A stretch of DNA of 58,124 bases from positions 1 to 58,124 of the forward strand of contig VGXG01000012.1 of the NCBI GenBank assembly GCA_016873395.1, written 5' to 3'. Shown here piece after piece: positions 8,727 through 43,749 of this stretch; the first letter of the stretch is position 1; every line of letters starts with the position of its first letter. Under the pieces are notes generated by a model. The model was given only the letters and a program-made list of their open reading frames with translations, made no database searches and had not been told where the DNA came from. Position numbers and translations under genes: made by a program. Source of the DNA: Nitrospira sp. GTDB taxonomy: Bacteria; Nitrospirota; Nitrospiria; Nitrospirales; Nitrospiraceae.

Positions 8727-8826
8727 CGTGACGAGTGACGGGTGACAGGTGACGGGAGGCGAAGAACGGGGGGTGGTGCCCCATGTCCGATGCTTTCCCA
8801 TCACTCGTCACGCGTCACCTGTCACG
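8727..8826. repeat. Iterated-word dyad, GTGACG family
   Basis: The left arm strings together GTGACGAGTGACGGGTGACA-type words; the right arm carries the reverse complement (ATCACTCGTCACGCGTCAC). It fills the spacer between mgtE and recO. Confidence 0.75.
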
Positions 8827-11677: not shown

Positions 11678-13040
<1,363 letters not shown>

Positions 13041-13271
13041 CTACTTGGCAGCAAAGTCAAACACGGGCGTTTGCAGAACCCGGGAAGGAGCGCGCTGCTC
13101 CCACACCGTCTTCTGTAGCCGCTCGACGGTATCCGGGCTATAAAGTCGTTCGCCGCACTGCACGCAGACCTTAGCTGGCACGTGCTCAACGACGACCAAT
13201 TTGTCGCCAAGTTGAATCGTATACGTCACCATCTGCTCTTTCAGCGGAGAACCGCACAAATCGCAGGCCAT
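13041..13271 (-). CDS. YgiT-type zinc-finger antitoxin
   Basis: 76 residues. Two CxxC pairs, CDLC and CVQC, with the intervening EQMVTYTIQLGDKLVVVEHV segment, define the YgiT/MqsA-N zinc-finger family. There is no MqsA C-terminal helix-turn-helix domain; the protein ends soon after a short helix. Its ATG lies one base past the stop of the DUF4258 gene, so the two form an operon. In this family pair the YgiT protein is the presumed antitoxin. Confidence 0.8.
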   Translation of the reverse strand: MACDLCGSPLKEQMVTYTIQLGDKLVVVEHVPAKVCVQCGERLYSPDTVERLQKTVWEQRAPSRVLQTPVFDFAAK

Positions 13272-13272
13272 G

Positions 13273-13578
13273 TTATCCCCTCCTCATTCTGAAATTCTCC
13301 CAAAGAGCGGGATCTGGTTCATACATGGTGATAATCTTGACGACAGGACGCGTCGCATCACTGCACTGAACGTGTATCGGCCGTCCAGCAACTGTCTTGC
13401 CGAAGATCAAGCAACTGGGACCGTACTTGTCTTCGGGATACATCTCAATCACCTCACCAACTGAAATGGCTTCCCGTATTTCCCGGACACTGATCCGACG
13501 AAGAATGCTCTGGTCAACTGCATGCTGCAAAAACTCGAATTGCCCTCGCGCAACTCTTTCCCGTATTTCCTCAATCAA
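13273..13578 (-). CDS. DUF4258 protein, presumed toxin
   Basis: 101 residues starting at a TTG. FLQHAVDQSILRRISVREI and VIEMYPEDKYGPSCLIFGKT, followed by IHVQCSDATRPVVKIITMYEPD, are typical of DUF4258, a RelE-like fold found with YgiT partners. The TTG starts one base after the stop of a 30-codon eno-derived leader frame, and GGAGAG within that leader lies about eight bases before it; translation is likely coupled. Toxicity is inferred from the pairing. Confidence 0.75.
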   Translation of the reverse strand: MIEEIRERVARGQFEFLQHAVDQSILRRISVREIREAISVGEVIEMYPEDKYGPSCLIFGKTVAGRPIHVQCSDATRPVVKIITMYEPDPALWENFRMRRG

Positions 13579-13600
13579 ATCAGGCTCTCTCCGATCTTAT

Positions 13601-13672
13601 GTCCACCTCCACGGTCGGGTTTCCCCGCGAATCCAGTATCTGCCGCCCTCTAATGTCCCGAATCGCGCTCAT
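13601..13672 (-). repeat. Copy of the eno 5' end (copy 2)
   Basis: 72 bases align without gaps to eno 12913-12984 with 9 mismatches by my count. Reading from the ATG at 13672 it still encodes [20 protein letters not shown] then VEVD; the protein changes are conservative (E to D, K to R) and most other changes are synonymous. The frame then diverges and stops at 13580-13582. It looks like the start of a different, once functional, enolase gene. Confidence 0.85.
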
Positions 13673-13702
13673 GAGTGCCCCGTCTCCCGTGATGAACGAG
13701 CC

Positions 13703-13969
13703 CTATTTCTGCTTGCGATAAATCTCTCGCCGATGCCCAATCGCATGAATCATGACCAACTTTTCATCATGAATAAGTTCATACACGACCCGATAGTCGC
13801 CGACCCGCAACTTGAACAATCCTTCAAGCTCCCCAGTGAGCGCTTCGAGCTGCAGTTCTTCAAGATTGTCTGCCAGCCGCTCTATCCGCTGGATGATCCG
13901 CCGAGCCACCGACTTGTCGAGCCTTGCCAAGTCCTTTGAGGCAGCATCCAGAAGGCGAACCCGATACAT
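13703..13969 (-). CDS. RelE/ParE-family toxin
   Basis: 88 residues with the RelE/ParE fold: YRVRLLDAASKDLARLDKSV, then LEGLFKLRVGDYRVVYELIH and MIHAIGHRREIYRK. The basic C-terminal HRREIYRK is where RelE-type ribosome-dependent RNases hold catalytic residues. Its start is three bases beyond the stop of the upstream small gene, the usual antitoxin-toxin order. Confidence 0.88.
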   Translation of the reverse strand: MYRVRLLDAASKDLARLDKSVARRIIQRIERLADNLEELQLEALTGELEGLFKLRVGDYRVVYELIHDEKLVMIHAIGHRREIYRKQK

Positions 13970-13972
13970 GCC

Positions 13973-14191
13973 TCAGTTGAGCCTCAATCGCTTGGCCATG
14001 ACTCCCAACGGTTCTCCTCTCTCTCCGGCCGCCACAGCCTTTCGCTGCCGAAGCAGCCGCTCCCTGAACACCTTTCTCAGGATCTGTCCTTGGTCGGGAT
14101 CATCCAGCAGCTGCAGCAATTTTCGCTCGACCGTCGATTCAATAATTTCTTTCAACTCTTGCTTGGTCATCTTGGCGACAGTTGCTGCCAT
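13973..14191 (-). CDS. Antitoxin partner of RelE-family toxin
   Basis: 72 residues, ATG preceded by GGGGGAGG. The N-terminal half is helical and acidic (KMTKQELKEIIESTVERKLL), containing a short LLDDPDQG turn, and the end is basic. This is the pattern of small antitoxins encoded immediately before RelE/StbE toxins. A DNA-binding domain is not obvious, so autoregulation is uncertain. Confidence 0.75.
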   Translation of the reverse strand: MAATVAKMTKQELKEIIESTVERKLLQLLDDPDQGQILRKVFRERLLRQRKAVAAGERGEPLGVMAKRLRLN

Positions 14192-14333: not shown

Positions 14334-14760
14334 TCATTGAACAGAAACAATGTTTACATCGTGAATTTGCTTATTGAGAGCCTTGATAAATTCGTTGAAA
14401 TATCGGTCTGATAACAAACCACCCCCCTTGGAGGAGCGCACGGAAGCCTCAACCTCCACTCCTGCTTGGGCCCTTCTAACTGCCACGTTTATTTGATACA
14501 CAAGCTCCCCTTTCTGCAATTCGCCCGAAATAACACCTGTGTTGATGTCACTCGACCTTACAGAGAAACCCGACGCAGCAACTGCCTGTGCACAACCCCT
14601 AAAGACATCATCATAACCTGCCTGAGTCCTTAACAAGCCAGCCGTCGGAGCACAGGCCCCAAAGCTAATGGCTATCCCAAGAATCAAAATAGCAACAAGC
14701 CTTGTTCGGACTATGGGATTTCTCTCTGTCTGTCTGTCTGTCTGTCTGTCTGCCTTGCAT
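14334..14760 (-). CDS. Putative phase-variable lipoprotein (start currently out of frame)
   Basis: The reading frame down to 14334 encodes a lipoprotein: VRTRLVAILILGIAISFGAC (lipobox FGAC) then APTAGLLRTQAG and a ~100-residue domain (FRGCAQAVAASGFSVRSSDI, then GVISGELQKGELVYQINVAV). Its best start, the ATG at 14760 with AGGAGG eight bases upstream, is followed by about six AGAC units and reads into a stop after 31 codons. Losing one four-base unit (or gaining two) puts that ATG in frame and yields a standard lipoprotein signal. In the present state only a weak TTG at 14687 opens the frame. Function unknown. Confidence 0.65.
14724..14752 (-). repeat. Tetranucleotide repeat (AGAC)6-7 in 5' coding region
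   Basis: CTGT units run without interruption on the plus strand (AGAC on the minus strand), nine bases into the frame that begins at 14760. Slippage changes the frame by one base per unit, as in known contingency loci of host-adapted bacteria. Confidence 0.85.
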
Positions 14761-15060
14761 CGCTAACCCCTCCTCCGTGAAAGATTAACTTGCAGTAGAC
14801 TTTTCATCCCCCTCACCCTAGCCCCCTTGCCTTCCAAGGACGAAGGGAAAACGCCTTCAGGGCCTACGGTCCCAACGGACGTTGCCTACCCGTCCCTATC
14901 GACTGAAGAAGAAGCACATTGGCCAGCTGGCCTGGCTGTCCCTTACTGCGCGCGTCCGTCGAGCACCGCCTGCTCCAATGAGAATTCAAATGAATCTTGC
15001 GTGCGCGGTGCATGAGCACAAGGGGCAGCCAGGCCAGTCCCGTGGCAGCAACACGCCCGC
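14761..15060. other. Spacer between gatB end and lipoprotein gene
   Basis: Three hundred bases without a supported gene. It contains the AGGAGG site and presumably the promoter of the lipoprotein gene (14761-14780), and the hairpin element at 14927-15037 that follows gatB. Nothing else was recognised. Confidence 0.5.
14927..15037. repeat. Palindromic element A (REP-like) after gatB
   Basis: CTGGCCTGGCTGTCCCTT at the left pairs with AAGGGGCAGCCAGGCCAG at the right. Inside lies ACTGCGCGC, CGAGCACCGCC on the left, and TCTTGCGTGCGCGG, GAGCACA on the right. The inner core recurs in element B at 42462-42584, while the outer arms differ in sequence yet still pair. Ends 24 bases beyond the gatB stop. 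Confidence 0.7.
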
Positions 15061-16503
15061 TCATCCTGCCAGTTTCCTCTTCAGCAACTCGTTCACCTTC
15101 CCCGGGTTCGCCTTGCCGCCCGAGGCCTTCATCACCTGCCCGACGAAGAAGCCCAATACCGTCTCCTTGCCGCTCCGATACTGCGCCACCTGGGCCTGGT
15201 TCTTCGCCATGACCTCGTCGATGATCTTCACCAGTGCCCCCTCATCGGATACCTGCGTCAGCCCCTTCTCCCGAACAATCTGCTCCGGAGATTTCCCACT
15301 GGCATAGAGTTCCGGGAAAATTTCCCTGGCCACCTTCAGGCTGATCGTTCCCTTCTCCACCAGTTGCAGCAGGCTCACGAGCCGCTCCGGACCGACCGGC
15401 GAGGCGTCCGCCGAGAGGCCGGCGTTGTTCAACTCGCACAGCAGCTCGCCCATCACCCAGTTGCTCACGGCCTTGGGCTGGTCGTACAGCTTCACGCAGG
15501 CTTCGAAATAATCGGCCAGCGTCTTAGACGAGACCAACACCCCTGCGTCATAGTCCGGCAGGCCATAGTCGGTCACAAACCGTTGCTGGCGGGCGGCCGG
15601 CAACTCCGGCAGGGTCTTGCGCAGCTCTTCGATCCAGTCACCCGCAATGCTGAGCGGAACCAAATCCGGGTCCGGAAAGTAGCGGTAGTCGTGTGCCTCT
15701 TCCTTGCTACGCATCGTCGCAGTCTGTCCCTTCCCCACATCCCAGAGCCGCGTCTCCTGCTGGATTGTCCCGCCTTCGTTCAGCACCTTGGTCTGCCGCT
15801 TGATCTCATATTCAATGGCATCTTTGACAAATCGGAATGAGTTGATGTTCTTGAGCTCGACTTTAGTCCCGAACGTCTTCTGCCCGACCGGCCGCAGCGA
15901 CAGGTTCGGCTCACACCGCAGGCTGCCCTGCTCCATGCTGCCGTCACAGACCTCCAGGTACATGAGGATGTTGCGCAGCGCCTTGAGGTAGGCTACTACC
16001 TCGTCGGCCGACCGCATGTCCGGTTCGGTGACGATTTCCAGCAGCGGCGTGCCGGCCCGGTTCAGGTCGACCAGGCTCACGGCACGGTTGTCCCCGTCAT
16101 GGACATTCTTCCCTGCGTCCTCTTCCAAGTGGGCGCGGCGAATCCGGATCTGCTTCCGGGTATCGCCCACCTGTACATCCACCACGCCGTTCTCGCAGAC
16201 CGGCGCTTCGTACTGCGAGATCTGATAGCCCTTGGGCAGATCGGGATAGAAGTAGTTCTTGCGGGCAAACCGGTTGGGGGATCGGATGGCGCAGTTCAGC
16301 GCCAAGCCCGTGCGGACCGCCATTTCGACGGCCTTCTCGTTGATGACCGGCAGGGTGCCCGGCATCCCGAGACAGACCGGACAGGTCTGGGTGTTGGCCG
16401 GTAGGCCGAACTGCGTCCCGCAGGCGCAGAACATCTTGGACTTCGTCAGCAGTTGGGCATGGACCTCCAGCCCGATGACAACTTCATACGAAGCAACCGT
16501 CAC
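15061..16503 (-). CDS. gatB: Asp/Glu-tRNA amidotransferase subunit B
   Basis: 480 residues, standard length. [25 protein letters not shown] and CPVCLGMPG (zinc site), [20 protein letters not shown] and LEEDAGK are GatB catalytic-domain signatures; the C-terminal helical and YqeY-like tail binds tRNA ([20 protein letters not shown], then [18 protein letters not shown]). With GatA and GatC it converts Glu-tRNA(Gln) or Asp-tRNA(Asn) to the amide forms. Start overlaps the YtxH-like stop by four bases. Confidence 0.97.
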
Positions 16504-21640: not shown

Positions 21641-21785
21641 CAGTTCCAAGTTATCAAGTTACAAGCTGACAGGGCAACTTGACCTATCAGCGAGATTTTT
21701 TTGATGTACGCGCTGTCGTCGCGTTTCCGTTCCGCGCCTTTCGACCTGACTTGTCAACTTGCCCACTTGTCGGCTTGCTACTTGC
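21641..21785. repeat. Iterated-word dyad, GACAAGT family, overlapping glmU 3' end
   Basis: Left arm CAAGTTATCAAGTTACAAGC then TGACAGG; right arm ACTTGTCAACTTGCCCACTT and GTCGGCTTGCTACTTGC. The right arm lies inside glmU and encodes the tail ASSKPTSGQVDKS. Confidence 0.7.
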
Positions 21786-23330
21786 GACCGCAGCAGCGCT
21801 TGCCGCCATGACCCGACGGCGAGCCGCCCACCCCGGCCGATTGACCTGCATGGACCGGGCCACTGCCAACGCGTCCGCCGGCACATCGTTCGTGATCGTG
21901 GAGCCGGCTGCCACAACCGCACCCCGCCCAACCGTAACCGGAGCGATCAACTGGCTGTCGCTGCCGATGAAGACCTCGTCCTCGATCACGGTCTCATGCT
22001 TGCGCACCCCGTCGTAGTTGCAGGTGATGGTCCCGGCCCCGATGTTCACGCCCCGGCCGATCTTAGCATCTCCCAAATAGCTGAGGTGGTTGGCTTTGGC
22101 CCCCTCCCCCAAGTCCGCTTTTTTCATCTCGACGAAGTTCCCGACCTTGGCGGCCCGGCGCAGGACCGTCCCGGGACGGAGATGGGCGAAGGGTCCCGCC
22201 GTGCTGTCGTCATCGAGACGCGCCTCCCGGATCATGCAGGAATCCTGCACCACCACCCGGTGGCCGAGCAGGCTGTCGGTGATCCGGCTGTAGGACCGGA
22301 TCACGCAATCCTCGCCGATGCGGGTTTTTCCTTCAAGTGCCACGTGCGGATAGAGGACCGTGTCTTTCCCGATCTCGACATCCGCATCGAGGTAGGTCGT
22401 GGCCGGATCGTGGAGCGTCACTCCCGCCTCCATCCAGCGGTCACAGAGCTGTCGCCGCACGACGTTTTCCGCCACCGCCAGTTGCCGTCGCGTATTGATC
22501 CCCAGACATTCTTCGGCGTCCCGCGCCGCCATCGCGCTTACTTTAAGCCCTCGCTCCACCGCCAGACCCACGATGTCGGTCAGGTAATATTCCTTCTGCT
22601 CGTTCTGCGGCTCGAGCTTGTCCAGGGCCTCGAACAGGAACGAGCCGTCCACGACGTAGGTGCCGACGTTGACCTCGTGCAGCCGAGCCGCGGTCTGGGT
22701 CGCATCCCGATCTTCCACGATCCGCCGCACCCGTCGATCGTCGTCGTCGCGGACCACGCGCCCGTATCCGCTCGGATCATCCAGGACCGCCGTCAAGAGG
22801 GTCACGGCGGCCCGTTCGGCTTCATGCAGCTTCAAGAGGTCATGGACGGTCTCGTCCGTCAGCAGCGGCGTGTCTCCGTTCAGAATCACGTAGGCCGAGG
22901 CGGGGCCGCCGCGCGCACGGGCAAACGCGGCGCGGGCCTGCATGACCGCATGTCCCGTTCCACGTTGCTCCTTCTGCTCCACGATGAGAATAGGCGGAGG
23001 TTGCAGAACCCGGTTTTTGACGTGAGCCGTCACGCCCCGCTCACGCTGCGCTGTCCCTCTGACTCCGCCCGGACTCGACGCCCTCGCCCAGCGCTCTTCG
23101 ATGACCGCCTTGACTTGCGCCCCCTGGTAGCCTACCACCACCGCAATACCGCCCCCGGCAAGCCGATCAGCCAACTCGACGGCATAGAGCACCATTGGCC
23201 GGCCGGCCACCGGGTGCAGGACCTTGGCCAGCTTGGATTTCATCCGCTTGCCCAGCCCTGCCGCCATGACGATTGCGCCCAGGCCCGGGACGGGCGATTT
23301 GTTGATTTGTTGATTTGTTGATTGCTTCAT
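21687..23330 (-). CDS. glmU: Bifunctional GlmU uridyltransferase/acetyltransferase
   Basis: About 547 residues from the ATG at 23330, longer than the usual ~455. N-terminal pyrophosphorylase (GAIVMAAGLGKRMKSKLAKV, LNGDTPLLTDETV) and C-terminal left-handed beta-helix acetyltransferase (NFVEMKKADLGEGAKANHLS, YLGDAKIGRGVNIGAGTITC, NYDG). Makes UDP-GlcNAc. Extra length includes an insert near residues 85-105 and a non-conserved basic tail (QVDKSGRKARNGNATTARTS) coded by a GACAAGT repeat arm; the first 15 residues come from an 8-base tandem repeat. These ends are probably dispensable. Confidence 0.94.
   Translation of the reverse strand: MKQSTNQQINKSPVPGLGAIVMAAGLGKRMKSKLAKVLHPVAGRPMVLYAVELADRLAGGGIAVVVGYQGAQVKAVIEERWARASSPGGVRGTAQRERGVTAHVKNRVLQPPPILIVEQKEQRGTGHAVMQARAAFARARGGPASAYVILNGDTPLLTDETVHDLLKLHEAERAAVTLLTAVLDDPSGYGRVVRDDDDRRVRRIVEDRDATQTAARLHEVNVGTYVVDGSFLFEALDKLEPQNEQKEYYLTDIVGLAVERGLKVSAMAARDAEECLGINTRRQLAVAENVVRRQLCDRWMEAGVTLHDPATTYLDADVEIGKDTVLYPHVALEGKTRIGEDCVIRSYSRITDSLLGHRVVVQDSCMIREARLDDDSTAGPFAHLRPGTVLRRAAKVGNFVEMKKADLGEGAKANHLSYLGDAKIGRGVNIGAGTITCNYDGVRKHETVIEDEVFIGSDSQLIAPVTVGRGAVVAAGSTITNDVPADALAVARSMQVNRPGWAARRRVMAASAAAVASSKPTSGQVDKSGRKARNGNATTARTSKKSR
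23294..23330. repeat. Tandem 8-base repeat at glmU start
   Basis: GATTTGTT occurs three times in a row, followed by GATTGCTT. It encodes the N-terminal STNQQINKS of GlmU, so copy number changes would alter frame (8 is not a multiple of 3). Confidence 0.7.
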
Positions 23331-23385
23331 TGTCTTGAGTGAAAATCGCTCAATCACCAGGTCGCAAAATCAAGAAATTCTCTCG

Positions 23386-43687: not shown

Positions 43688-43749
43688 ACTTGCAACTTGC
43701 AAACTTGCAACTTTGTCCACTTGTCAGCTTGTACACTTGCAACTTGTCA
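43687..43749. repeat. GACAAGT-family array, right arm beside four-helix-bundle gene
   Basis: ACTTGCAACTTGCAAACTTG, CAACTTTGTCCACTTGTCAG and CTTGTACACTTGCAACTTGT. It covers the whole spacer between ispF and the four-helix-bundle gene and supplies the sequence upstream of the latter's ATG. Confidence 0.75.

Follow-up and report, generated by a model that had tools for sequence, protein, structure and literature searches.

In the window, a 58,124-nt stretch of Nitrospira sp. DNA, an ATG preceded by a perfect AGGAGG reads almost directly into an uninterrupted tetranucleotide tract, and the number of units in this tract sets whether the start codon is joined to the frame of a putative lipoprotein lying between gatB and eno. 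We propose, with a confidence just short of even, that the locus is a translational simple-sequence-repeat ON/OFF slippage switch, which would be in its OFF state in the assembly.

The first-pass annotation had described an AGGAGG, an ATG and six to seven AGAC units that run into a stop, an arrangement that we confirmed base by base (Table 1). The ATG is separated from the (CAGA)x7 tract by CAAGG, and its present product is the 31-codon peptide MQGRQTDRQTDREKSHSPNKACCYFDSWDSH, which then meets the stop. In the assembly a +1 offset separates the lipoprotein frame from the register of ATG 14760, and frame arithmetic shows that the removal of one unit or the addition of two joins this ATG to the lipoprotein frame. 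When the number of AGAC units was varied by simulation, the full protein emerged only with 2, 5 or 8 of them, the assembly having 6; this agrees with the earlier claim that loss of a single unit (5 units) is sufficient. As in known contingency loci, the repeat is uninterrupted, not built of triplets and longer than expected by chance, it is placed in the 5' part of the coding sequence a few nucleotides after a credible start, and the gain or loss of units opens or closes a conserved frame that is itself undamaged.

Table 1. Coordinates of the switch candidate, its flanking genes and other repeat arrays (window positions unless an L number precedes them).
Feature	Position	Strand	Remarks
Shine-Dalgarno AGGAGG	14769..14774	(-)	8-nt spacer to ATG
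ATG start codon, repeat-bearing frame	14758..14760	(-)	sequence inspection
Uninterrupted tetranucleotide tract, (CAGA)x7	14725..14752	(-)	28 bp; 6 perfect AGAC units within
Six perfect AGAC units	14728-14751	(-)	followed by one degenerate AGAG
Stop codon TAG met by the ATG frame, present OFF register	14665..14667	(-)	31 codons from ATG 14760
TAG closing the lipoprotein frame on its 5' side	14763..14765	(-)	no upstream canonical start possible in lipoprotein frame
Lipoprotein coding frame (VRTRLVAILILGIAISFGAC...)	14337..14711	(-)	125 aa; predicted helix-grip domain
Stop codon of lipoprotein frame	14334-14336	(-)	
Lipobox Cys codon	14654-14652	(-)	
TTG, only canonical start inside the lipoprotein frame	14685..14687	(-)	11 residues, no positive charge before Cys
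gatB, upstream neighbour	15061..16503	(-)	gatB-eno position common to G012 homologue
eno, downstream flank of the gatB-eno interval	11698..12984	(-)	
7-8 nt unit arrays, examples	L060:6078-6109, L014:2337-2367, window 8728-8756, 43688-43749		

The tract (TRF score 57) is exceptional in its own genome, since no second (AGAC)4 or longer occurs anywhere in the 2.34 Mb assembly. In a 1.25 Mb sample, taken in stretches and covering 54% of the 2.34 Mb genome, the counts of period-4 tracts drop about 3.5-fold per added base, from 3131 of 8 bp to 2 of 14 bp and one each of 16 and 17 bp, so that the single 28-bp tract lies far beyond the length distribution. An order-5 Markov model produced no period-4 tract longer than 14 bp in 2.7 Mb. 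The start signal beside the tract is also unlikely to be accidental because AGGAGG-N5..9-ATG has a density of just 0.05 per kb per strand across 1.25 Mb of the host genome. The lineage does not appear rich in tetranucleotide loci, as no other tract above 17 bp is found in the sampled 54% of the genome and 120 family genomes contain neither (GCAA)5 nor (AGTC)5. Another family member, G143, carries an 8-unit AGAC tract (L109 1501-1532) with a small GYD-like gene on one side and zwf on the other; it was considered as a parallel case and rejected, being intergenic and placed before zwf.

Arrays of 7-8 nt units in 3-4.5 copies (GTGACGN, GGCGAGN and ACTTGTC types) are abundant in the host genome, the 1.25 Mb sample holding 18 period-7 tracts of at least 21 bp, many of them near gene starts or in gaps. 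The octanucleotide CAACAAAT, repeated 3.5 times at window positions 23296-23323, lies in the opening codons of a minus-strand GlmU-like gene (21690-23357); because eight is not a multiple of three, changes in its unit number would alter the GlmU-like frame if the start lies upstream.

On the evidence of codon-position identities with a homologue and of a fold model, the frame beyond the tract encodes a real protein. Its 125 codons are free of internal stops and frameshifts, with the conserved residues intact, and its N-terminal segment, RTRL-VAILILGIAISFGAC, displays on inspection the positive n-region, the hydrophobic core and the lipobox cysteine of a lipoprotein signal. The textbook signal recognized in the first-pass annotation is therefore retained as a signal, but the VRTRL... 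sequence carries no start codon at its head, V being encoded by GTC, and neither ATG nor GTG is present in the lipoprotein frame before TTG 14687. AlphaFold2 confidently predicts an alpha/beta domain (mean pLDDT 83.3). Among solved structures, Foldseek matches this model best to the N-terminal domains of BamC (E 4e-5, TM about 0.53), giving the predicted model the helix-grip fold of BamC domains. No Pfam family, that of BamC included, was matched at E up to 1, NCBIfam returned just one weak and irrelevant match, and a sequence search of the PDB yielded nothing significant. The description that best fits sequence and model is a lipoprotein carrying a BamC-like helix-grip domain. It resembles BamC in joining a lipoprotein signal to such a domain, but its sequence identity to BamC is 8-11%, it has one domain where BamC has two, and its gene is without Pfam match and is not universal in the Nitrospiraceae family. 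The protein is probably an outer-membrane lipoprotein, and we infer that it resides at the surface or in the outer membrane.

The GC3 of the lipoprotein gene (0.45 versus 0.77 for the genome) marks it as atypical, like the neighbouring DUF4258 gene, and perhaps as dispensable. Because of this low GC3, codon-usage scoring failed to single out the lipoprotein frame, and we relied on comparison with a homologue instead. A promoter scan upstream of the gene found nothing, no RNA family was matched in the window, and the exact junction sequence was not found in IMG/VR.

A search of 175 family genomes, among which there was no second member of the host genus, returned one convincing homologue, in a genome of another genus (G012), where it is also located between gatB and eno. 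The two proteins are 39% identical over 118 aligned codons. Over these codons the identity at positions 1/2/3 is 0.53/0.69/0.27, and the same codon is kept at 10 of the 46 identical residues, a pattern that, allowing for alignment at the protein level, points to protein-level constraint in exactly the lipoprotein frame. The homologue has the lipobox GLTGC and an N-terminus that is open, in frame and extends upstream of the signal. Assuming that it starts at the ATG of MSGQ..., there are 38 residues to the cysteine, compared with 35 in the 5-unit form here, which, together with the open N-terminus, supports the view that translation begins at ATG 14760 and crosses the tract. The first-pass annotation had raised the case of homologues translated from another start without the repeat. 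The G012 homologue is indeed repeat-free and has an in-frame upstream start. Conservation of the repeat, a supportive rather than a defining property of contingency loci, is thus absent in G012, and the comparison suggests that gain (or loss) of the repeat postdates the separation of the host and G012 lineages. Other matches from profile searches of the family are remote lipoproteins of a similar type and not orthologues, a match in G141 (L003) proved to be a false, low-complexity one within an unrelated protein, and a peptide-pattern search of named GTDB genomes for the lipoprotein gene found none.

In other relatives the gatB-eno interval contains different genes or almost nothing, and it is a variable region in the Nitrospiraceae family. 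The start of eno is moreover an insertion hot spot, where two unrelated toxin-antitoxin cassettes, ParE with its antitoxin and DUF4258 with an MqsA-like Zn-ribbon protein, are found directly upstream of eno in several Nitrospiraceae (window 12984-14191; L089, L093, L121, L080); the window carries both in tandem. At the upstream edge of the cassettes lies a duplicated remnant of the first 16-29 codons of eno, which in the window spans about 90 bp (13586-13676) and is identical over 60 nt in G001. The recurrent arrival of toxin-antitoxin genes with duplication of the 5' end of an essential gene is worth a separate study. Among named genomes of the collection, the enolases nearest to that of the window come from metagenome-assembled genomes of Nitrospirae, Nitrospira and Nitrospiraceae, which makes the nitrifier-like bacterium assumed at first pass reasonable with regard to lineage.

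Based on these observations, we propose a switch in which ribosomes would initiate at ATG 14760 and translate the AGAC tract, while slipped-strand mispairing at replication would add or remove 4-bp units and so cycle the downstream sequence through three registers. Tracts of 5 or 8 units would yield an n-region of the MQGR(QTDR)n type followed by the hydrophobic core, the lipobox and the BamC-like helix-grip domain, whereas 6 units (the assembly) or 7 would lead to early termination and no lipoprotein. Slippage would have to occur in vivo and switching to be reversible. Tracts of 3-12 AGTC units, with mutation rates of 1e-7 to 1e-5 per division, are termed mutable, and those with more than about 10 units reach 1e-5 or faster (PMC4235727). 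The 7 CAGA units here fall short of this hypermutable range, which is typical of contingency loci and not defining. The best reading would thus be switching of the mutable class, at about 1e-7 to 1e-5 per division, which would be slow relative to the long Haemophilus influenzae tracts; at such rates one would expect a single state in a draft genome. Membership is not excluded by this low number, since the H. influenzae Rd loci are described as having five or more repeats (PMC4235727). The layout of a phase-variable contingency gene claimed at first pass stands as far as the layout itself, the frame arithmetic and the lipoprotein call are concerned. A live switch is favoured because nothing else in the lipoprotein frame is broken, and disfavoured by the repeat-free G012 homologue, by a unit number that is only in the mutable class and by the lack of other long tetranucleotide tracts in the sampled part of the genome. 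The OFF register of the assembly and the low GC3 of the gene likewise weigh against it.

Nearly as likely as the switch is a one-off slippage pseudogene, a possibility to be taken seriously although we would not bet on it, in which a short AGAC expansion next to the start of an ordinary lipoprotein gene has knocked it out of frame in this strain or species and decay is beginning, without selection for switching ever having acted. This would account for the out-of-frame state of the assembly, the repeat-free, in-frame G012 homologue and the atypical composition; the gene is also absent from the other family genomes searched, and hence dispensable, and the genome carries many 7-8 nt slippage arrays without obvious function. 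However, the undamaged 125-codon frame implies that any inactivation was recent, and seven perfect units could still revert. Since a recent OFF state and a recent knockout share one sequence, the two explanations are inseparable here.

It is improbable that the register is a consensus artefact, the assembly being wrong in the unit number or in a neighbouring base and the gene constitutively in frame (5 or 8 units, or another indel). The sequence does come from a draft, of 97 contigs and 97.8% completeness, but the tract, at 28 bp, is short for modern reads, and the adjoining gatB, eno and toxin-antitoxin genes all have intact frames. Least probable of all is a start after the tract, which would then be an untranslated purine-rich leader, at the weak internal TTG 14687 or the non-canonical ATA 14714 (MVRTRLVAILILGIAISFGAC), for although the signal peptide made from the latter would be well formed, and a purine-rich GAGAGA stands a few bases ahead of the ATA, initiation at AUA is very rare, TTG 14687 leaves 11 uncharged residues before the lipobox, the G012 homologue can begin well before its signal, and the perfect AGGAGG-ATG would have no product.

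The slippage switch that we favour has counterparts among surface lipoproteins, the neisserial HpuA being itself a lipoprotein. Its gene, hpuA, contains a poly-G tract (listed in Table 2 of PMC4235727), and the mycoplasma Vlp/Vpma proteins are phase-variable surface lipoproteins (PMC11868660). These systems share with the switch proposed here a surface lipoprotein under slippage- or recombination-type control, but differ from it in repeat type and mechanism, in their unrelated proteins and in belonging to host-adapted bacteria. By repeat unit, the nearest precedent is H. influenzae lgtC (HI_0258; printed 'igtC' in the table), whose GACA-driven phase variation involves 8 to 38 units among strains (PMC2651432). 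GACA is the same unit as AGAC, and in both genes the tract lies in the coding frame, changes in unit number shift that frame and the encoded tetrapeptide repeat is hydrophilic (PMC2651432). In contrast to this glycosyltransferase gene of a human commensal, with its 8 to 38 units and proven strain variation, the locus described here has 7 CAGA units, encodes a lipoprotein and is known from one genome.

Tetranucleotide contingency loci have been described chiefly in host-adapted bacteria (PMC2651432), and we found no description of phase-variable repeats in Nitrospira in the open-licence library searched. The AGAC locus is thus a candidate in a new lineage for a kind of slippage switch that is itself well known. 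Somewhat more tentatively than the switch as such, we suggest that a free-living member of the Nitrospiraceae may control an envelope lipoprotein by a working tetranucleotide switch, recent in origin, confined to a single locus and perhaps evolved under phage or predator pressure; selection for switching may, for example, act through avoidance of phages or predators at the cell envelope. Proof of such a locus in this nitrite-oxidizer lineage would suggest that envelope phase variation is of use to environmental bacteria as well.
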